39,737 nt of DNA from an uncultured Rhodospirillaceae bacterium. GTDB lineage: Bacteria; Pseudomonadota; Alphaproteobacteria; SP197. The translations under genes were made by a program, and so were the position numbers. Each line of letters begins with the position of its first letter. Positions within the stretch are counted from its first letter, which is position 1. Of this stretch, positions 7,740 through 25,195 are shown piece after piece. The DNA lies in assembly GCA_937880925.1 (NCBI GenBank), contig CALGGB010000101.1, positions 1 through 39,737 of the forward strand. Reading direction: 5' to 3'. Below the pieces are notes generated by a model. That model searched no databases. It was not told where the DNA came from and saw only the letters and a list, made by a program, of their open reading frames with translations.

Positions 7740-8440
7740 CGCCAGGCCTCGCCGCGGCGGTGGATGAGGATCATGGAGAAGTAGGGCGCCTTGGCCTGGT
7801 CGAGGTCGGCGAAGGCGAGCACCCTTTGGTCGGCCATGGTGGCGTGTTCGACGTAATGGGCGCGGTCGGCAAGGCCCAGGGCCTCGATGACGCGGCAGAC
7901 CTTGGCGAAGTGGCGGCCGATCTTGATGATCGCGGCGGCCTCGGCGGTTTCCAGCCGGGCGCGCAGCTCGTCCTCGTCCAGGGTCGCCGGGCAGACCATC
8001 AGCACGTCGTCGCGCGAGGCGAGCGGGGCACCGGCCGCCGCCGGGCAGGCGACCAGCGAGGAAACGCCGGGCACCACCTGCGTGCGGAAGCGGTCCGAAA
8101 GACGGCCGAAGAGATACATGAACGAGCCGTAGAAAAACGGGTCGCCCTCGCAAATCACCGCGACATCGCGCCCGGCCGTGAGGTGGCCCGCGATTTCCTC
8201 GGCCGCGCGGTCATAGACCGCCTCGACCGGGAAACGGTTGGCGTCCAGCGGCATGCGGATGGCGATCTCGGTCTGGCCTTCCACCAGATGCGGCGCGACG
8301 ATCCGGCGCGCCAGGCTCTCGCCGGTCTCGGGCGCGGGCCAGGCCAGCACCGGCACGCTGCGCAGCAGGCGGTAGGCCTTCAGCGTGATGAGCTCGGGAT
8401 CGCCGGGGCCGACGCCCAGGCCGTAGAGCGTGCCGCTCAT
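7736..8440 (-). CDS. cobI: precorrin-2 C20-methyltransferase
   Basis: A 234-residue SAM-dependent methylase. LYGLGVGPGDPELITLKAYR is the canonical start of CobI/CbiL. AVICEGDPFFYGSFMYLF and VVPGVSSLVACPAAAGAPL follow, with IIKIGRHFAKVCRVIEAL near the C-terminus. It adds the C-20 methyl to precorrin-2 (or its cobalt form). The ATG at 8440 overlaps the cobL stop by four bases, which fixes the start; its own stop overlaps the CbiG-CobJ start in the same way. Confidence 0.95.
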   Translation of the reverse strand: MSGTLYGLGVGPGDPELITLKAYRLLRSVPVLAWPAPETGESLARRIVAPHLVEGQTEIAIRMPLDANRFPVEAVYDRAAEEIAGHLTAGRDVAVICEGDPFFYGSFMYLFGRLSDRFRTQVVPGVSSLVACPAAAGAPLASRDDVLMVCPATLDEDELRARLETAEAAAIIKIGRHFAKVCRVIEALGLADRAHYVEHATMADQRVLAFADLDQAKAPYFSMILIHRRGEAWR

Positions 8441-9642
8441 GGTTTCACCGCGCGCCACTGGGTGACCGGCATCATGGGTCGCCAGCCGGTGAGGCCCCCG
8501 ACGGGTTCGGCGCGGCTGACCGCCACGCGCACCAGTTCGCCGCCGAGCGTTTCGTGGTGGCGGTAGAGCGCCTGCTCGCTTTCCAGCGTCACCGCGTTGG
8601 CGACCAGACGCCCGCCCGAAGGCAGCGCGTTCCAGCAGGTCTCGACCACGCCCTCGCCCGCGACGCCGCCGCCGACAAAGACCGCATCGGGCGCCTCCAG
8701 GCCGTCCAGCGCGGCGGGCGCGCTGCCGGCGATGACCTTCAGGTTCGGCGTGCCCAGCGCCAGCGCGTTGTGCGCCGTCATGGCGCGGCGCTCGGCATTG
8801 CGCTCGATGGCGATGGCGCAGGCCCGGTCGGCCGCGCGCATCCATTCGATGGCGACCGAGCCGCAGCCCGAGCCGACATCCCACAGCCGCGCGCCGGGGG
8901 TGGGGGCAAGGGCGGCCAGCGTCATGGCGCGGACCTCGCGCTTGGTCATCTGGCCGTCGTGCTCGAAGGCGTCGTCGGGCAGGCCGGGCGAGCGCGCGAG
9001 CACACGCGTGCCGGGCGTTGCGCCGAGTTCCACCCCAATGGTGTTGAGATCGTCCACGTCTTCTCCGATGCCTTCCGCCGCCAGCGCCGTGATCAGGCGC
9101 TCACGCGGACCGCCCATGTGGCACAGCACATGGAGGCGGCTTGGCCCGAAACCGGCACGGGTGAGCAGGTCCGCGACCTTGGCGGGCGTGGAAGCATCTT
9201 CCGACAGGATGAGCAGGCGCTGGCCGGGCGCCAGATGGGCATTCAGAAGCTCCAGCGGACGGCCGTGCAGGGTGAGCTGCACGGTCTCGGCCAGCGGCCA
9301 GCCCAGGCGCGCGCAGGCCAAGGTGAAGGCCGAGAGCCCGGGGATGACGCGGGCGCTATCGGCGCCGAAGCGGCGCAGCAGGGTCACGCCGATGCCGTAG
9401 GCCATGGGATCGCCCGAAGCGAGCACGCAGACACGCTTGCCCTTCAGGCCCTCCAGGCGCTCCACGGTCTTTTTCAGCGGGCTTTCCCAGGTCAGGTGCT
9501 GCGCACCCGTGTCGCCGGCAAGCTCCAGATGGCGCGCGCCGCCGACCAGGACCTCCGCCCCGTCGACCAGCGCGCGGGCGGCCGGCGCCAGGCCCTCCAG
9601 CCCGTCCTCGCCCAGGCCGACGATCGATAACCAGGCCGTCAT
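8437..9642 (-). CDS. cobL: precorrin-6Y C5,15-methyltransferase (decarboxylating)
   Basis: A 401-residue protein with the CobL two-domain layout. The CbiE-like N-terminal methylase opens WLSIVGLGEDGLEGLAP and contains VLASGDPMAYGIGVTLLRR and VIPGLSAFTLACARLGWPLA. The CbiT-like C-terminal half has a Rossmann SAM motif, LWDVGSGCGSVAIEWM. It methylates C-5 and C-15 and decarboxylates the ring-C acetate. Full family length suggests an intact gene. The ATG at 9642 lies directly after the CobH-fusion stop with no spacing. Confidence 0.95.
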   Translation of the reverse strand: MTAWLSIVGLGEDGLEGLAPAARALVDGAEVLVGGARHLELAGDTGAQHLTWESPLKKTVERLEGLKGKRVCVLASGDPMAYGIGVTLLRRFGADSARVIPGLSAFTLACARLGWPLAETVQLTLHGRPLELLNAHLAPGQRLLILSEDASTPAKVADLLTRAGFGPSRLHVLCHMGGPRERLITALAAEGIGEDVDDLNTIGVELGATPGTRVLARSPGLPDDAFEHDGQMTKREVRAMTLAALAPTPGARLWDVGSGCGSVAIEWMRAADRACAIAIERNAERRAMTAHNALALGTPNLKVIAGSAPAALDGLEAPDAVFVGGGVAGEGVVETCWNALPSGGRLVANAVTLESEQALYRHHETLGGELVRVAVSRAEPVGGLTGWRPMMPVTQWRAVKP

Positions 9643-11205
9643 TCAGATGCCTCCCATCAGGGCGTTGACCGCGGCGGCGGCCATGGCGCTGCCGCCGCGC
9701 CGGCCGTGGACCGCGATATAGTCGATGCCGCTGGCGGCCAGCGCGCGCTTTGATTCCGCCGCGCCAACGAAACCCACCGGCATGCCGATGATGAGCGCCG
9801 GGCGCGGCCCGCCGGACGCCACGATCTCAAGCACGCGGAAAAGCGCCGTGGGCGCATTGCCGATCGCGACCACCGCGCCTTCCATCTGCGACGCCAGCAG
9901 GTCGATGGCGGCGGCCGAGCGCGTGCCCCCGCGGCTTGCCGCGCGTTCGGCGGCGGCCTTGGCCGCGACCTTGCAGAGCACCTTGTTCCCGGCCGGCAGG
10001 CGCCGCGCGATGATACCCTTGGCGACCATCTCGACATCGGCGATCACCGGCGCGCCGGCTTCCAGCGCCGCGCGGCCCCTGGCCACTGCGCCTTTGGAGA
10101 GATCGAGGTCGCGCGGCAGGTCGGTCATGCCGCAGGTGTGGATCAGGCGCACCGCCAGGGGGTGGGCCTCCACTGGCACATGGGAAAGATCGGCCTCGGA
10201 TTCGATGATGCGCCGGCTCTCCCGGTAGATCGCCTCCGGGTCGTCGATATAGGCAAAGCCGCTGGAGAACAGGCCATCGACATCGACCGGCTGCCGTCCC
10301 GCGCGGATTCCCGGCCGGTCGATGCCCAGCACCCAGCCCTCCTCACGCTCCACCGCCTGGTGCTCGGCCGGCGTCAGGCCGGGCGCGCCTGCAAACACGG
10401 CAGAAAGCGCACCCTCCTCGTCCAGCCGGGCGAAGTGGCCGGCGATGGCCTGGACCTGAAGGGAATCCTTGACCGCCTCCTCGCGTGCCTGCGGAGCGAC
10501 CAGCGAAGGGTAGATCTCGGTGAGGATCACGGGATGGCGCCGCGTCGTCTCCTCATCGAGCGGGGCGAGCCCGGTCTCGAAGGGCCAGACGCGGCAGAGG
10601 TCCTTCAGCCGCCGGTCGCGGCGCAGCAGGCGCACGACGGGAATACCCGTCAGCGCCTGGCTGCCGACCGAACCCGCGCCCGAGAGCTTCCACACCGGCT
10701 GCGGCCCGCTGATGAACCGCTCGCCGATACGCTTTTCCGGAAGGGCGCCATAGCTCGGCCGGGTCATGACCAGATGATCAAAGCTGCGGCCCTGGGGATG
10801 GCCCCAGAACGGCCCGGCCTCCAGACCCATGGCGGCGTTGAGGCGGTCGGCGACGGCAAAGCGGTTGTTGGCGTTGTCGGCGCCATCGTCGATCACCGCG
10901 GCCAGCCGGTCCCAGGTCGCCTGCCAAGGCGCACCCTTCAGCCCCAGTGCGGCGGCAGTCCCCGCGGGATAGCCGAAGGGGAAATCAAAACCTGCCAGCG
11001 TGCGCTTGCCCTGCCCTGCAAGGTCAGCCAGCAGGTCCGCGATCCGGGCGCGCGCACCCTGGCGTGTCGCGGCATTCTCCAGCACCGCCAGGCGCAGGCC
11101 GCGCGGCGTCCGCTCGGCCAGCGCCAGCCAGATGCTGTCGCGGCCAAGCTTGGGACGCGCCTCCGCGCTCCAGTCGACCATGAGATAGGCATCGAACAGG
11201 GTCAT
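9643..11205 (-). CDS. cobH: DUF429-like domain fused to precorrin-8X methylmutase (CobH)
   Basis: A 520-residue protein of which only the last ~204 residues (from about 317) are CobH/CbiC. AVRLIHTCGMTDLPRDLDLS carries the catalytic histidine at about residue 356. GAPVIADVEMVAKGI, AIGNAPTALFRVLE and IGMPVGFVGAAESK follow. This domain shifts the C-11 methyl to C-12 to give hydrogenobyrinic acid. The ~300-residue N-terminal part begins DAYLMVDWSAEARPKLGRDS and has GFDFPFGYP (~72-80) and ILTEIYPSL (~227-235), a spacing of acidic motifs like the DUF429/RNase H-like fold. Its function in cobalamin synthesis is unknown to me. A normal CobH is about 210 residues, so the extension is a true fusion within one frame. 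Confidence 0.9.
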   Translation of the reverse strand: MTLFDAYLMVDWSAEARPKLGRDSIWLALAERTPRGLRLAVLENAATRQGARARIADLLADLAGQGKRTLAGFDFPFGYPAGTAAALGLKGAPWQATWDRLAAVIDDGADNANNRFAVADRLNAAMGLEAGPFWGHPQGRSFDHLVMTRPSYGALPEKRIGERFISGPQPVWKLSGAGSVGSQALTGIPVVRLLRRDRRLKDLCRVWPFETGLAPLDEETTRRHPVILTEIYPSLVAPQAREEAVKDSLQVQAIAGHFARLDEEGALSAVFAGAPGLTPAEHQAVEREEGWVLGIDRPGIRAGRQPVDVDGLFSSGFAYIDDPEAIYRESRRIIESEADLSHVPVEAHPLAVRLIHTCGMTDLPRDLDLSKGAVARGRAALEAGAPVIADVEMVAKGIIARRLPAGNKVLCKVAAKAAAERAASRGGTRSAAAIDLLASQMEGAVVAIGNAPTALFRVLEIVASGGPRPALIIGMPVGFVGAAESKRALAASGIDYIAVHGRRGGSAMAAAAVNALMGGI

Positions 11206-11358: not shown

Positions 11359-12438
11359 CTACGACTTCAGCGTCTTTGGCCCCAGCGGATGATCGGCATG
11401 GGGATAGGGATGATGACCGTGATCGTGGCCGTGGCTGTGTCCATGGTCGTGGCCGTGATGATGGTCGTGGCCATGGTCGTGGCCATGGTCGTGGCCATGG
11501 TCATGGTCATGATCGTGGCTGTGCCCGTGATCGTGTCCGTGGCCATGACCGGCGGCGCCGGTGCCGATGCCTTCCACATGATGGTGATGGCTTTCCTGGG
11601 GCAGGCCGACCTCGGCCTCGAAGCCCAGGACCTGCTCGCGATACTTGCAGGTCTGGCAGTTCATGTTGCCGGTGCCTTCCAGGATTTCGTGGACCCGGTC
11701 GACGAAGGTGTCGAGAACCAGGGGATGGTCGTTGAGGTAACCGGCCTTCACGAACTGGGTGTCGCCATGCTTGGCCGCGGCGGCATCGACGGCGTCGTAG
11801 ATGCGCTGCACCAGGATGCCGTTGAACAGGAAATACGGGAAGACGACGACGCGCTTGAAGCCTAAGCGCACGACATGATCGAGCGCGGGCGCGACCAGCG
11901 GGAAGGTGACGCCGGAATAGGCGACCTCGCCCCAGCCGAAACCCAGGCCCTCCCACAGCATGCGCGCAACCTTGGAGACGTTGGAATTGGCATCGGGATC
12001 GGAGGCGCCGCGCCCCACCGTCACAAGCAGGGTGTCGTGATAGGCGACCGGACCGTGCTCTGCGTCGGCGGCCGCCATCGCCGCCTTCACCCGCTCGCCC
12101 GCGGCGCGCACCAGTCGCGTGTCGATGCCCAGATCGCGGCCATAACTGATACGCAGGCCCTCGTGCTGTGCCTGGTACGTGTTGAGCACGCTGGGCACGT
12201 CGTTCTTCACGTGGCCGGCGGCAAACAGCATCCCCGGTACCGCCAGGATGCGGCGGGCGCCCTGGGCGCGCAGCTTGTCCAGGCCGTCGCGGATGATCGG
12301 CGTCGCGAATTCCAGGAAGCCGTATTCCATCGGCCAGGCAAAACGGCCCTTCAACTGTTCGGCGACGTTGGCGAACTCGCTGATCGCCCGTTCGTCCCGG
12401 CTGCCGTGGCCGCACATCATCACCGCGATGTCGCTCAT
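11359..12438 (-). CDS. cbiX: sirohydrochlorin cobaltochelatase CbiX, long form with His-rich tail
   Basis: A 359-residue CbiX. The N-terminal chelatase half opens VMMCGHGSRDERAI with a likely metal-binding His11. The second half has VTVGRGASDPDANSNVSKV and GVTFPLVAPALDHVVRLGFK, typical of long CbiX. At ~259-266 is MNCQTCKY, a CxxC motif like the Fe-S/redox motif of CbiX-L proteins. The tail from ~284 is almost wholly His, Gly, Asp and Ser (repeated HDHG units), probably a metal store or handover segment. It inserts Co(II) into sirohydrochlorin in the early-cobalt route. It heads the corrin-ring operon, separated by a family C repeat from the next gene. Its coexistence with cobN is notable. 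Confidence 0.92.
   Translation of the reverse strand: MSDIAVMMCGHGSRDERAISEFANVAEQLKGRFAWPMEYGFLEFATPIIRDGLDKLRAQGARRILAVPGMLFAAGHVKNDVPSVLNTYQAQHEGLRISYGRDLGIDTRLVRAAGERVKAAMAAADAEHGPVAYHDTLLVTVGRGASDPDANSNVSKVARMLWEGLGFGWGEVAYSGVTFPLVAPALDHVVRLGFKRVVVFPYFLFNGILVQRIYDAVDAAAAKHGDTQFVKAGYLNDHPLVLDTFVDRVHEILEGTGNMNCQTCKYREQVLGFEAEVGLPQESHHHHVEGIGTGAAGHGHGHDHGHSHDHDHDHGHDHGHDHGHDHHHGHDHGHSHGHDHGHHPYPHADHPLGPKTLKS
11400..11560 (-). repeat. imperfect 6/12-base tandem repeat encoding the His-Asp-Gly tail of CbiX
   Basis: Plus-strand units such as CATGGTCGTGGC recur in direct succession around 11470-11515, with degenerate copies on both sides, and are in frame with the HDHG-rich CbiX tail. Such tracts can vary in copy number by slippage without breaking the frame. 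The array is coding and not a CRISPR. Confidence 0.8.
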
Positions 12439-17048: not shown

Positions 17049-20000
17049 TCATGCCACCTTCTCCTTCTTTTGCGTCCTGCCGGAGAGTGCGGCAAGGCGC
17101 TCCCCGGTGCTGTTGCGCCGCGGCTTCCACAGGCCACGCGCCTGGGCCTCGGCAAGCCGGGCCGCGATGTCGGCAAGGGCCGCCGGATTGACCTCGGCCA
17201 TCCAGTCACGCACCGCCGCATCATCCAGAAAGGCATCGAAGACCGCATCGAAGTGATGGTCCTCGACGCAGCGGGCCGAAGCGGCAAAGCCGAAGAGATA
17301 ATCGACCGTGGCGGCCATCTCGAAGGCGCCCTTGTAGCCGTGGCGCATCACGCCCGCGATCCACTTGGGGTTCACCACGCGGGCGCGCACGACGCGGCCG
17401 ATCTCCTCCTGGAGGGTGCGGATCTTCGGGCTCTCAGGCCGCGAGTGATCGTTGTGATAAACCGCCGGCTGCTGGCCCGAAGCCTTGCGCACGGCAGCCG
17501 TCATGCCGCCCTCGAACTGGTAGTAGTCGTCGGAATCGAGCAGGTCATGCTCGCGGTTGTCCTGGTTGTGGAGCACCGCCTCGACCTTGCCCAGGCGCCG
17601 CTCGAAGAGATCATGGGCGGGTTTGCCTTCGGCACCCGCGCCATAGGCCCAGCCCGACCAGGCGACATAGGCGCGCGCCAGATCGTCGGCATGGTTCCAG
17701 CCGCCCTCGTCGATCAGCGCCTGCAGGCCCGCGCCGTAGGAGCCGGGCTTGGAACCAAAGACGCGGGTGGCGGCCTGGCGCCGGGCGGCATCGGCATCCT
17801 CGCCCGCCTGTGTCGCACGTGCGGTCTCGGCGGCGGCGCGGGCGGCGAGCGGGTTGATCTCCTCGGGTTCGTCCAGCGCGGCGACGGCGCGCGCGGCGCT
17901 GTCGACCAGATCGATCAGGTTCGGGAAGGCATCGCGGAAGAAACCCGAGACACGCAGCGTGACATCCACACGGGGACGGCCGAGCACGCTAGCCGGCATG
18001 ATCTCGAAGCCGGTGACCCGGCCGCTGCGCGGTTCCCAGGTCGGCTGCACGCCCATGAGCGCCAGCGCCTGGGCGATATCGTCGCCGCCCGTCCTCATGT
18101 TCGCCGTGCCCCAGGCCGAAAGCGCCACGGCGCGCGGCCAGTCGCCATGTTCCTGGGCATGACGCTCGACCAGCCGGGTGGCCGAGGCCCAGCCCAGCCG
18201 CCAGGCGGCGGGCGTGGGCACCGAGCGGGTATCGACCGAATAGAAGTTGCGCCCCGTCGGCAGCACGTCCGGCCTGCCGCGCGAGGGTGCGCCCGATGGC
18301 CCCGGCTGCACGAAGCGGCCGTCGAGGCCGGTCAGCAGCGCGCCGATCTCGGCATCGCCGCAGGCTGCCACGGCGGGGCGCAGGTGCGCCTCGATCTCGG
18401 CCAGCACGGCGGCGGTCGCCGTCCATCCGGGATCGCAGGCGGCCTCGCCGCCGACCAGCGCCAGGGCGAGCAGCTCCAGCCGCTCCACCGTGTCGCCGTT
18501 GCTGCGCCAGGGCGCGTCCGTGATGGCGGCCAGCACCCCGGGCCGTTCGCCCGACCAGGGCGCGGCCATGTCCGCATCGAGCGGGTCGATGGAGAGCCCA
18601 AGGTCGGCGGCCAGCGCACGGGTGAGCGAGGCATGGCCGCCCTTGCCGTCGCCGCGCGGCACGCGGACCAGGGCAACGGTCAGCGCATCGGCCAGCGCCT
18701 TCTCCGGCGAGCGGCCGAAGATATGCAGGCCGTCGCGGATCTGCATTTCCTTCAGCTCGCAGAGATAGCCGTCGAGCTTGGAGAGACGTTCACCCTCGTT
18801 GTCGCCCGCACCGATGCCGCAGTCCTTGTCGAGCCCGGTGGAGACGCACAGGTCGAGGATGTCGCGCGCCAGGGGTTTGAGGCGGCGCGGATCGGTCTGG
18901 CTGGCCTCGAAGTACTCGTCGACCAGGGCCTCCAGGTCGCGCAGGGGACCGTAGGTTTCCGCCCGCGCCAGCGGCGGCGTCAGGTGGTCGACAATCACGG
19001 CGGCGGTGCGCCGCTTGGCCTGGCTGCCCTCGCCGGGGTCGTTGACGATGAAGGGATAGAAATGCGGCAGGGGCGCAAAGGCCGCCTCCGGAAAACAGGT
19101 TTCCGAAAGCGCCAGCGCCTTGCCCGGCAGCCACTCCAGGGTGCCGTGTTTGCCCATGTGGATCACGGCATGGGCGCCGAAACCGCGGGCCAGCCAGGCA
19201 TAGAAGGCTAGGTAACCGTGGGGCGGCACCAGATCGGGATCGTGATAGGTCGCCTTGGGATCGATGTTGTAGCCGCGCGCGGGCTGCACCCCGACTGCGA
19301 TGTTGCCCCAGACATGCACCGCAAGCTGGAAGGCGCCGCGTGCGACATGGGGATCGCGCTCGGGCGTACCCCAGCGATCGGTGATCGCGTCGCGCACCGC
19401 TTCGGGCAGGGCGTCGAAGAAGGCGCGGTAGTCGGCGAGCGGCAGGGCGACCGAACCCTCGCGCGGACGCGTCAGGTCGTTGGTCGGCCCGGCCAGCAGG
19501 GTTTCGATCAGCGCCCGCCCGTCGCCCGGCACACCCGTTACATTGTAACCGGCCTCGCCCAGGGCCTGCAGCACGACGCTGGCCGAGGCGGGCGTATCGA
19601 GCCCCACGCCGTTGCCGATGCGGGCATCGCGGTTGGGATAGTTGGCGAGCACCATGGCGACCCGTCGCTCACCCGCGGGCGTCGCGCCGAGGCGCGCCCA
19701 GCCGGCGGCGAGCCGGGCTGTCCATGCGACGCGGTCGGCGACCGGCTCGTGGCGCACGACATTGCTTTGCGTCGCTTCGTCCCAGCGGGCCGCAGACTTG
19801 AAGGAGATGGCGCGCGTCAGGATGCGGCCGTCGACCTCCGGCAGGGCGACGTTCATGGCGATGTCGCGCGGCGCCATGCCGCGTGTGCCGCCCTCCCAGG
19901 CCTCCCGCGTGCCGCCCGAAAGCACGGCCTGCAGGATCGGGCAGTCGGCGGCATCGAAGGGCGTGGGCCCGCGCTGCGCCCCGGGGCTCGCCAGCGCAAA

Positions 20001-20801
20001 GCCGGTGCAGTTGAGGATCACCGAGGGCGGATGGAGGGCGAGCGCCTCCTCGACGAAGGATGCCGCGGCCGGGTCCTTGAGGCTCTGGCTGTGGAGCGGC
20101 AGGGCGTTGAGGCCCTGCTCTGCCAGCGCTGCGACCAGCGCATCAATCGGTGCGGTGTCACCCGCCTGGACCAGCGCCCGGTAGAAGACGATGGCGGCGA
20201 CCGGGGCGCCCGCCACCCAGTGTCCGGCGACATCGGCCAGTGACGGCAGCGTCACGCCGGGCCAGTGACAGCCGGCACGCGGCAGGGTCTCGGGCTCTCC
20301 CGCCTGCGTTGCGTATCCGGCGAGGCTTGCGGCATGGCGAAGGAAGTTCACCGCGTTGCCGTGGCCGCCGTGGATCAGGTAGGCCCAGAGCCGGTCGTAG
20401 TCGGCTTGCGACACGGTGGAGAGGCGGCGCAGTTCGCCGTCCTCGCGGTCGTCGCCCGGCAGAAGGGCTAGGTGAACGCCGTTCGCCCGGGCCGCCGCGG
20501 CGATCTCGTCGGCGCCGTAGCGCCAATAGGCCGCACCGCCCAGCAGGCGCACGACCACGACCCTGGCGTGCGCCGCCACGGCTTCGACATAGGTGTCGAC
20601 CGACAGGTTGTGCGACAGGGCCATGACGCTGGCGAGGCGCAAGCTGGGTCCATCCCCGGCCAGCGTGGCGGCGGCATCGGCAAGCAGCGCAAGTTCGGTG
20701 TCGGCGGCCGAAAGCACGACGATCTCGCCCGGCGTCTGGCCGAGATCGATCGCCTCGCTGCCGTCGCTCACCTCACCGGGTTGCGCCGCAAGCAGATGCA
20801 T
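17049..20801 (-). CDS. cobN: aerobic cobaltochelatase subunit CobN
   Basis: A 1250-residue protein, the usual CobN length. Recognisable stretches include VVRLLGGAAYWRYG and LLPGDDREDGELRRLSTV near the N-terminus, then VFYRALVQAGDTAPIDAL, LANYPNRDARIGNGVGLDTP, HMGKHGTLEWLPGKALALSE, FYPFIVNDPGEGSQAKRR, DGLHIFGRSP and the C-terminal MRHGYKGAFEMAATVDYLFG. CobN is the large subunit of the ATP-dependent late chelatase acting on hydrogenobyrinic a,c-diamide with CobS and CobT AAA-type subunits, which are not in this window. Its stop overlaps the likely original cobO start by four bases. It follows cobW across a 271-base repeat-filled gap. Confidence 0.95.
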   Translation of the reverse strand: MHLLAAQPGEVSDGSEAIDLGQTPGEIVVLSAADTELALLADAAATLAGDGPSLRLASVMALSHNLSVDTYVEAVAAHARVVVVRLLGGAAYWRYGADEIAAAARANGVHLALLPGDDREDGELRRLSTVSQADYDRLWAYLIHGGHGNAVNFLRHAASLAGYATQAGEPETLPRAGCHWPGVTLPSLADVAGHWVAGAPVAAIVFYRALVQAGDTAPIDALVAALAEQGLNALPLHSQSLKDPAAASFVEEALALHPPSVILNCTGFALASPGAQRGPTPFDAADCPILQAVLSGGTREAWEGGTRGMAPRDIAMNVALPEVDGRILTRAISFKSAARWDEATQSNVVRHEPVADRVAWTARLAAGWARLGATPAGERRVAMVLANYPNRDARIGNGVGLDTPASASVVLQALGEAGYNVTGVPGDGRALIETLLAGPTNDLTRPREGSVALPLADYRAFFDALPEAVRDAITDRWGTPERDPHVARGAFQLAVHVWGNIAVGVQPARGYNIDPKATYHDPDLVPPHGYLAFYAWLARGFGAHAVIHMGKHGTLEWLPGKALALSETCFPEAAFAPLPHFYPFIVNDPGEGSQAKRRTAAVIVDHLTPPLARAETYGPLRDLEALVDEYFEASQTDPRRLKPLARDILDLCVSTGLDKDCGIGAGDNEGERLSKLDGYLCELKEMQIRDGLHIFGRSPEKALADALTVALVRVPRGDGKGGHASLTRALAADLGLSIDPLDADMAAPWSGERPGVLAAITDAPWRSNGDTVERLELLALALVGGEAACDPGWTATAAVLAEIEAHLRPAVAACGDAEIGALLTGLDGRFVQPGPSGAPSRGRPDVLPTGRNFYSVDTRSVPTPAAWRLGWASATRLVERHAQEHGDWPRAVALSAWGTANMRTGGDDIAQALALMGVQPTWEPRSGRVTGFEIMPASVLGRPRVDVTLRVSGFFRDAFPNLIDLVDSAARAVAALDEPEEINPLAARAAAETARATQAGEDADAARRQAATRVFGSKPGSYGAGLQALIDEGGWNHADDLARAYVAWSGWAYGAGAEGKPAHDLFERRLGKVEAVLHNQDNREHDLLDSDDYYQFEGGMTAAVRKASGQQPAVYHNDHSRPESPKIRTLQEEIGRVVRARVVNPKWIAGVMRHGYKGAFEMAATVDYLFGFAASARCVEDHHFDAVFDAFLDDAAVRDWMAEVNPAALADIAARLAEAQARGLWKPRRNSTGERLAALSGRTQKKEKVA

Positions 20802-22714: not shown

Positions 22715-22895
22715 TGGTCCAGCTTGGAACGGGGAGGTTTCCTGGCTCCGGCTCACCGGCGACGGACCCCTTCCCGGCCACAGGGCCAGTGGGATGATGT
22801 CCGTCGTCTCACCGTTACAGTTGCGGGGGCAGCGCCGGCCTGTGCCCACACGGGCGGCACCGGCTTCCCTCGTCTCGTTCCGGGGTGGAACCTAG
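22715..22895 (-). promoter_or_regulatory. cobalamin (B12) riboswitch upstream of cobU
   Basis: Read on the minus strand the leader contains GAGGGAAGCCGGTG, then GCTGCCCCCGCAACTGTAAC, then CCACTGGCCC, and finally the B12 box GAGCCAGGAAACCTCC. These are the conserved elements of adenosylcobalamin riboswitches, in the correct order and spacing. The B12-box CCTCCC is complementary to the GGGAGG of the cobU ribosome binding site, which suggests translational control, though this is inference. It should repress cobU-cobW and possibly the downstream cobN series when coenzyme B12 is plentiful. Confidence 0.93.
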
Positions 22896-24977: not shown

Positions 24978-25000
24978 GAACACGTTCCCAGGGCCGGGAA

Positions 25001-25050
25001 TGGACCACGACCGGACGCAACGCCCGGCCCTTCCCGGCGCGTCCGGTCCA
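25001..25050 (-). promoter_or_regulatory. leader hairpin between the Mn riboswitch and the GDT1-type gene
   Basis: TGGACC-ACGA-CCGGACGC (25001-25018) is the near-perfect inverse of GCGTCCGGTCCA (25039-25050). It forms a strong stem just upstream of the start codon at 24977. No T-tract follows, so it is more likely part of an expression platform or an anti-structure than a plain intrinsic terminator. Confidence 0.5.
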
Positions 25051-25084
25051 TGGTCTCGCCAATGCCCGCTGCTGCAGGCCGTTT

Positions 25085-25195
25085 GCGCCATGACGGCAGG
25101 CCGAAGACCCGTCGCCAAGTATGTTGACGCAAACCCTCCTGGGAAACGGAGGCGGCTACTCCCCAAAGACGGTGGGGTCTTTAGCCTGCCGGAGA
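25085..25195 (-). promoter_or_regulatory. yybP-ykoY manganese riboswitch
   Basis: On the minus strand the leader contains GGGGAGTAGCCGCC (25151-25164 region) preceded by a stem (AAAGACCCCACCGTCTTT). It continues to GCGTCAACATACTTGGC (about 25115-25131) and GACGGGTCTTCGGCCTGCC. The GGGGAGUAGC and GUCAACAUACU segments are the conserved ligand-binding loops of the yybP-ykoY class, which senses Mn2+. The downstream gene belongs to a protein family repeatedly found under this riboswitch. Edges are approximate. Confidence 0.85.

Follow-up and report, generated by a model that had tools for sequence, protein, structure and literature searches.

The gene at positions 9643 to 11205 of the minus strand raises the question of why an enzyme of cobalamin biosynthesis is preceded by a second domain of about 300 residues, and whether that domain has a job in the same pathway. 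The window, by which we mean the whole stretch of 39,737 nucleotides that was analysed, has a cobalamin gene cluster of the aerobic type on its minus strand. The open reading frame starts with ATG and encodes 520 amino acids, and a preliminary description of this DNA had placed it at exactly these coordinates. It joins an RNase H-like, DUF429-like domain to CobH (precorrin-8X methylmutase). The cobL gene (8437 to 9642, minus strand) lies flush against the stop codon, with no nucleotides between them, and the cbiX chelatase gene (11359 to 12438, minus strand) is found upstream. A cobalamin riboswitch (22735 to 22870, minus strand) lies upstream of a cobW-cobN-cobO series on the same strand.

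Some other features of the window are of separate interest. A yybP-ykoY manganese riboswitch (24989 to 25176, minus strand) is near the cobalamin riboswitch. The cluster combines CobN (17049 to 20801, minus strand), the CbiX of 11359 to 12438 (minus strand), which has a long histidine-rich tail, and CbiG. CobN belongs to late cobalt insertion, and the CbiX chelatase is a marker of early insertion. Tandem SYLF/Ysc84 genes (PF04366; 15005 to 15682 and 15691 to 16422, both minus strand) separate cobO from cobQ. In many relatives, including Magnetospirillum, cobQ likewise has a SYLF gene beside it, and because this adjacency recurs, SYLF may regularly belong to cob clusters of this kind.

The C-terminal half of the protein is a complete and ordinary CobH. 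The methylmutase domain comprises residues 322 to 520 (9646 to 10242, minus strand), and Pfam CbiC (PF02570) matches residues 325 to 516 with an E value of 1e-68 and 231 bits against a cut-off of 22.5, covering profile positions 2 to 194 of 196. This half shares 58% identity with Brucella CobH (3e7d), on which the model superposes with a TMt of 0.94. His356 (IHTCGM, 10138 to 10140, in the VR.(I/V)H.CG motif) aligns with the catalytic histidine of 3e7d and 1f2v. No CbiC other than the fused CobH was found in the genome, and this CobH keeps the catalytic histidine, so it must serve as the enzyme.

The two domains are separate in the predicted structure. The N-terminal domain takes up residues 1 to about 300 (10306 to 11205, minus strand), as delimited by an AlphaFold2 model and a match to NCBIfam NF011066, and a linker of about 20 residues follows (residues 301 to 321; 10243 to 10305, minus strand), where model confidence is low. 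The two-domain layout given in the preliminary description therefore stands, with the front domain ending near residue 300, but CobH has about 199 residues and not about 204. In the full-length model each domain is well predicted, while pLDDT is 63 to 72 over residues 311 to 330 and pTM for the whole protein is 0.69. With the linker so poorly determined and this pTM, no fixed interface between the domains is predicted. The same in-frame fusion is found at 48 loci (among 171 loci with the domain, some genomes being counted twice), and these include isolates of Magnetospirillum, Rhizobium albus, Pararhizobium haloflavum, and Consotaella. The fusion is thus not an assembly artefact.

The front domain is nearly absent from the domain libraries. 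Residues 1 to 320 have no Pfam match, and none of 51 relatives has a credible one. The best named match is to the C-terminal "unknown domain" (profile positions 167 to 441) of NF011066/PRK14495, which aligns with residues 3 to 294 at an E value of 1.6e-50 and is also matched by 49 of the 51 relatives. The protein scores 172 bits against this equivalog's whole-protein cut-off of 596 and matches only its unknown-domain half, so it falls outside the equivalog. Since Pfam gives nothing and PRK14495 is the only informative NCBIfam match, the searched libraries know the domain only in a molybdenum cofactor (Moco) protein, where it is left unnamed. A sequence search of the PDB with the domain gave no match, and in the literature library searched there was no publication on the CobH fusion or PRK14495 and nothing relevant about CobH/MobB fusions; the leading hits for DUF429 were word matches to DUF4297.

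The predicted structure of the front domain has the topology of the RNase H fold. The AlphaFold2 model, built with 48 sequences, has a pLDDT of 95.5 and a pTM of 0.94. Its elements are strands 1 to 3 (residues 6-11, 25-33, and 36-45), a helix (48-64), strand 4 (69-73), a helix (180-195), strand 5 (226-230), and two further helices (246-263 and 279-289). This is the order of the RNase H-like core (b1-b2-b3-a-b4-a-b5-a), interrupted by a large insert that comes after strand 4 and before the helix leading to strand 5. Foldseek matches in the PDB are all weak and none is significant (best E value 0.014, TM below 0.2), and they are led by a terminase nuclease, herpesvirus UL15, RuvC, RuvX, and Argonaute; weak matches among viral models are led by RuvC and terminases. 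Because no close relative has a solved structure, the fold assignment depends on the predicted topology and on which folds appear among the weak matches.

The conserved residues of the domain include a predicted acidic cluster. The preliminary description had pointed to VDW, GFDFPFGYP, and TEIYPS motifs and had suggested structure prediction as a check. These motifs are present and correspond to invariant columns of the family, so they are not due to chance, and the model has an RNase H-like order with a conserved acidic cluster. D11 (VDWS; 11173 to 11175, minus strand) is at the end of strand 1 and is invariant in alignments A1 and A2, and D74 (GFDFPFGYP; 10984 to 10986, minus strand) is at the end of strand 4 and is likewise invariant; both are proposed metal ligands. 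E230 (TEIYPS; 10516 to 10518, minus strand) at the end of strand 5, E289 (EEGWVLG; 10339 to 10341, minus strand) at the end of the last helix, and the basic residue R159 (10729 to 10731, minus strand) are invariant. D247 (VKDSLQVQA; 10465 to 10467, minus strand), at the beginning of the helix that follows strand 5, is conserved in at least 90% of sequences. The full set of residues invariant in the 51 relatives is D11, W12, D74, R159, V180, G181, G187, P208, E230, and E289. By their positions in the model, D11, D74, and D247/E289 place carboxylates on strand 1, strand 4, and C-terminal helices. Six key residues (D11, D74, R159, E230, D247, and E289) are intact at 166 of 171 loci whatever the neighboring genes: in 46 of 48 CobH fusions, 10 of 10 MoeA fusions, all copies with mob or cob neighbors, and 80 of 83 unlinked copies. 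D11 is kept at all but two of the 171 loci, and both exceptions are copies of one degenerate gene. That an acidic active site is kept intact under selection with any partner argues for catalysis. The front domain is best described as a distant, DUF429-like, predicted RNase H-fold hydrolase.

The relationship to DUF429 is distant. Direct membership, which was considered as a candidate, was rejected at the level of Pfam, since none of the 51 relatives matches PF04250 (cut-off 23 bits) at an E value of 1 or less. Comparison of the family with a set of five DUF429 sequences by hhalign also gave nothing significant. With an HMM of the front-domain family, the best of 5471 open reading frames outside the family is a DUF429-like protein, L194, at a modest 19.7 bits (E = 1.5e-4). 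L194 has no Pfam match itself, and it matches another protein, L092, at 2e-48, which in turn matches PF04250 with 31.5 bits. This bridge is modest and L194 is below the DUF429 cut-off, and so the domain is called DUF429-like and not a member of DUF429. By eye, D247 may be equivalent to the aspartate of the DUF429 DALxxA motif. A distant subfamily (L073, L075, L076, L077, L079, and L080; alignment A4) has a DUF429-like DALxxA motif where D247 seems to fall. Its genes are mostly found directly behind rarA, and several are then followed by crcB and/or rluC.

The domain is mainly alphaproteobacterial and usually present in a single copy. It is matched in 53 of 337 genomes of the class, strongly in 37, and nearly all of these have one copy. 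In a sample of the phylum (398 genomes), 35 of 38 matches fall in the class; the remaining three are weak matches. A few metagenome-assembled genomes labelled Acidobacteriota or Actinomycetota, with the labels taken as given, also have it. The scan for related loci used the window protein alone as its query. Among 171 loci (some genomes represented twice), the domain is fused to CobH in 48 and to MoeA in 10, it has another cob gene nearby in 23 and mob genes nearby in 7, and in 83 it is elsewhere. The common order in cob clusters is cbiX-[domain]-cobH-cobL. Rhodobacterales have an fdhD-mobA-mobB-[domain]-moeA cluster, and the domain is fused ahead of Glp/MoeA in Alloyangia and Salipiger and is a separate gene in Ruegeria TM1040. 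In three genera (families f2, f60, and f67) cobU is directly upstream of the domain (L042:7486-8894, L048:6364-7781, and L049:7465-8897). In two of these three genomes (G074 and G081) there is no CbiC, a sign of corrinoid salvage, and such genomes probably obtain corrinoids by salvage only. Many copies in Caulobacter and Phenylobacterium are near an alcohol-dehydrogenase-type gene and none are near cob genes. A Caulobacter vibrioides genome, included as a control, has no CbiC match. Pfam and NCBIfam scans around about 20 unlinked loci revealed no common neighbor theme.

The domain is under purifying selection where it is intact, and its association with cobH has changed repeatedly. The dN/dS ratio of the domain is 0.17 for the pair that includes the window and 0.09 to 0.34 for other intact pairs. 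On the supported branches of a quick tree of 81 non-redundant domains, the CobH-fused state changed at least seven times, the cob-neighbor state at least six times, and the unlinked state at least four times; the root was not inferred, and gains and losses are therefore indistinguishable. All mob-linked copies fall together in a single group with support. The pattern fits a single old place in the cob cluster with repeated in-frame joining to and splitting from cobH. In two genera of one family, CobH-fused copies are degenerate remnants: L173 and L174 lack the strand 1 aspartate, and L187 and L188 are much shortened. In these pairs the ratio is 0.37 to 0.47 for the domain versus 0.07 to 0.08 for its own CobH half, a difference of about fivefold. 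Judging from these ratios, the domain has decayed under relaxed constraint in both genera while CobH was conserved.

The distribution of the domain relative to CobH argues against a necessary role in corrin synthesis. Of 37 strong carriers of the domain, 25 have CbiC, versus 91 of 300 other genomes (raw counts that ignore kinship and genome size). Nine carriers that are at least 90% complete have no CbiC, absences from draft genomes being only as reliable as their completeness. In the family of the window, 15 of 16 genomes have CbiC, and it is fused to the domain in seven, adjacent to a separate domain gene in three, and without a detected domain in five. One relative in this family (G015) has the whole cbiX-cobH-cobL order and no domain. 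In another case two genomes of the same genus differ: G177 has CbiC and a cobQ-domain order, and G274 has no CbiC and the domain adjoins a SYLF gene, which is its neighbor in G177 also. The occurrence of the domain without CbiC, and of CobH without the domain in close relatives, suggests that the domain is dispensable for corrin synthesis. The preliminary description had taken the fusion to CobH as an argument for a cobalamin-related job; a cobalamin-specific one is not supported, in view of the nine CbiC-less carriers, the Moco cluster, the five CobH-containing relatives with no domain, and the two genera with decayed domains. A cobalamin-specific regulator, scaffold, or chaperone was rejected as the leading explanation on these grounds other than the Moco cluster. 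It had also been proposed that random occurrence away from cobalamin genes would refute a link to the pathway. Here 83 of 171 loci do have no cob or mob neighbor, but the mob and cobU contexts recur, so the placements are not all random.

The explanation we favor, and think somewhat probable, is that the gene is a real fusion of two independent enzymes, a metal-dependent RNase H-fold hydrolase and an ordinary CobH, and that corrin synthesis does not require the hydrolase. The front 300 residues or so would be an RNase H-fold domain from the RuvC/terminase side of the superfamily and distant kin of DUF429. D11, D74, E230, and D247/E289 would most likely hold a divalent metal for hydrolysis of phosphodiesters. 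The hydrolase gene would have had its place in a common cob cluster, flanked by cbiX and cobH, with in-frame fusion to and separation from cobH occurring repeatedly, and the two activities are most likely independent of each other. What the data show is the fusion, its conservation, its contexts, and the predicted topology; the metal binding, the hydrolytic chemistry, the independence of the domains, and (from comparing genomes) the dispensability of the hydrolase are our inferences. A point against this explanation is that nuclease or phosphodiesterase activity of the domain is only predicted, and YqgF and Tex, which have the RNase H fold with carboxylates and no demonstrated nuclease activity, are a reason for caution (PMC3985635). 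In addition, CbiC is commoner in carriers of the domain than in other genomes, before any correction for kinship, and the domain is placed in B12 and Moco operons more often than expected for an unrelated passenger, including next to cobU in CbiC-less genomes, and a shared cofactor-linked role is possible.

One form of such a role, which we regard as doubtful but as the main rival, is a hydrolase common to B12 and Moco synthesis that cleaves or proof-reads a nucleotide-linked intermediate, so that its location varies and the class of substrate does not. GMP is attached in both pathways, by CobU/CobP to cobinamide and by MobA to molybdopterin. The three cofactor neighborhoods (cbiX-[domain]-cobH-cobL, cobU-[domain], and the fdhD-mobA-mobB-[domain]-moeA cluster with its MoeA fusions), the MobB fusion modelled by NCBIfam, and the nearly universal single copy agree with this idea. 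However, 83 of 171 loci have no cofactor neighbor and the scanned unlinked loci share no theme, CobH itself handles no nucleotide, and a small genome that is at least 90% complete (G211) keeps the domain although neither CbiC nor MoeA was found in it. MoeA is present in 36 of 37 strong carriers, but it is so common that this co-occurrence carries little information. More speculatively, and with correspondingly less confidence, the domain could be the first representative of a hydrolase family, so far unrecognised, with a function in both pathways, for example as a phosphodiesterase that cleans up cofactor intermediates which are guanylated or damaged.

Other roles depend more directly on CobH or on a different chemistry, and they are less probable. 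Hydrogenobyrinic acid is the product of CobH and is bound by it, and its binding might gate a front domain that cleaves or binds nucleic acid and in this way adjusts the expression of cob genes. We consider such a sensor improbable, even though the CobH-like domain of the regulator CoaR is a real precedent with solved structures (PMC7689651) and a cobalamin riboswitch is present in the cluster. The fused CobH must work as the enzyme, the domain is mostly unfused and exists where CobH does not, no fixed interface is predicted, and CobH stays where the domain has decayed. A role without catalysis, in which the domain supports CobH as a scaffold or as a chaperone for its substrate, had been suggested earlier and could account for the shortened remnant lacking an active site that is kept in frame in two genera, but it too is quite unlikely. 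An active site pattern conserved in 46 of 48 CobH fusions would be needless in a scaffold, the roughly fivefold higher dN/dS of the remnant is as expected of decay, and close relatives have CobH alone. Very unlikely is an ATPase or phosphatase of the ASKHA type (actin/hexokinase-like). The weak Foldseek matches do include glucokinase, Ppx/GppA, and FtsA, but a single RNase H-like unit is predicted here versus two in ASKHA proteins, and the acidic cluster is on strands 1, 4, and 5 and the C-terminal helices, as in nucleases of the RNase H fold.

Annotation by fusion partner has concealed this domain. A conserved and apparently catalytic domain, by prediction, with no Pfam family is hidden in genes annotated as MoeA/Glp, MobB, or CobH. 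Its presence in the operons of two unrelated metal cofactors is a concrete lead to a shared activity. If it were a clean-up hydrolase, it would be an extra step missing from the textbook pathways for both B12 and Moco. If its activity is unrelated, it would be a clear case of neighboring genes fusing with no common function.

The window protein can be compared to several known systems. PRK14495, the "MobB/unknown domain fusion protein," contains the same domain, and its partner is MobB where here it is CobH; the model assigns the domain no function. The Glp/MoeA fusions of Rhodobacterales (L038, L040, L068, L071, and others) have the same N-terminal domain with the same conserved residues. Their partner is a molybdotransferase, and Glp is the only name that the records give to the full fusion. 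The CobH structures that have been solved (1f2v and 3e7d) are of proteins with about 200 to 230 residues and no N-terminal domain. CoaR, a MerR-type cobalt regulator with a CobH-like domain (PMC7689651), shares the plan of a different N-terminal domain joined to a CobH-like one. Unlike CoaR, the window protein has no MerR match, its front domain is RNase H-like, and its CobH part is the working enzyme.

DUF429 proteins (PF04250; COG2410, COG4328, and COG4923) are RNase H-like as the front domain is, and they have D.., aiDaPfGLP, E.y/hP, and a C-terminal D..DA in the same order. The DUF429-like protein L194 also ends in EGWI, as members of the front-domain family do. In contrast to DUF429, the family has a long insert (about residues 85 to 180) and its own set of VGSQ..GIP, WPFETG, and EEGW motifs. 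In a 2014 classification of the RNase H-like superfamily, DUF429 is in clade D together with RuvC and terminase (PMC3985635). The nuclease domains of RuvC and the large terminase, which lead the structure matches of the front domain, thus belong to the clade of DUF429 (PMC3985635). They differ from the front domain in their inserts and match it with a TM below 0.2, and the front domain has no sign of a junction or packaging function.
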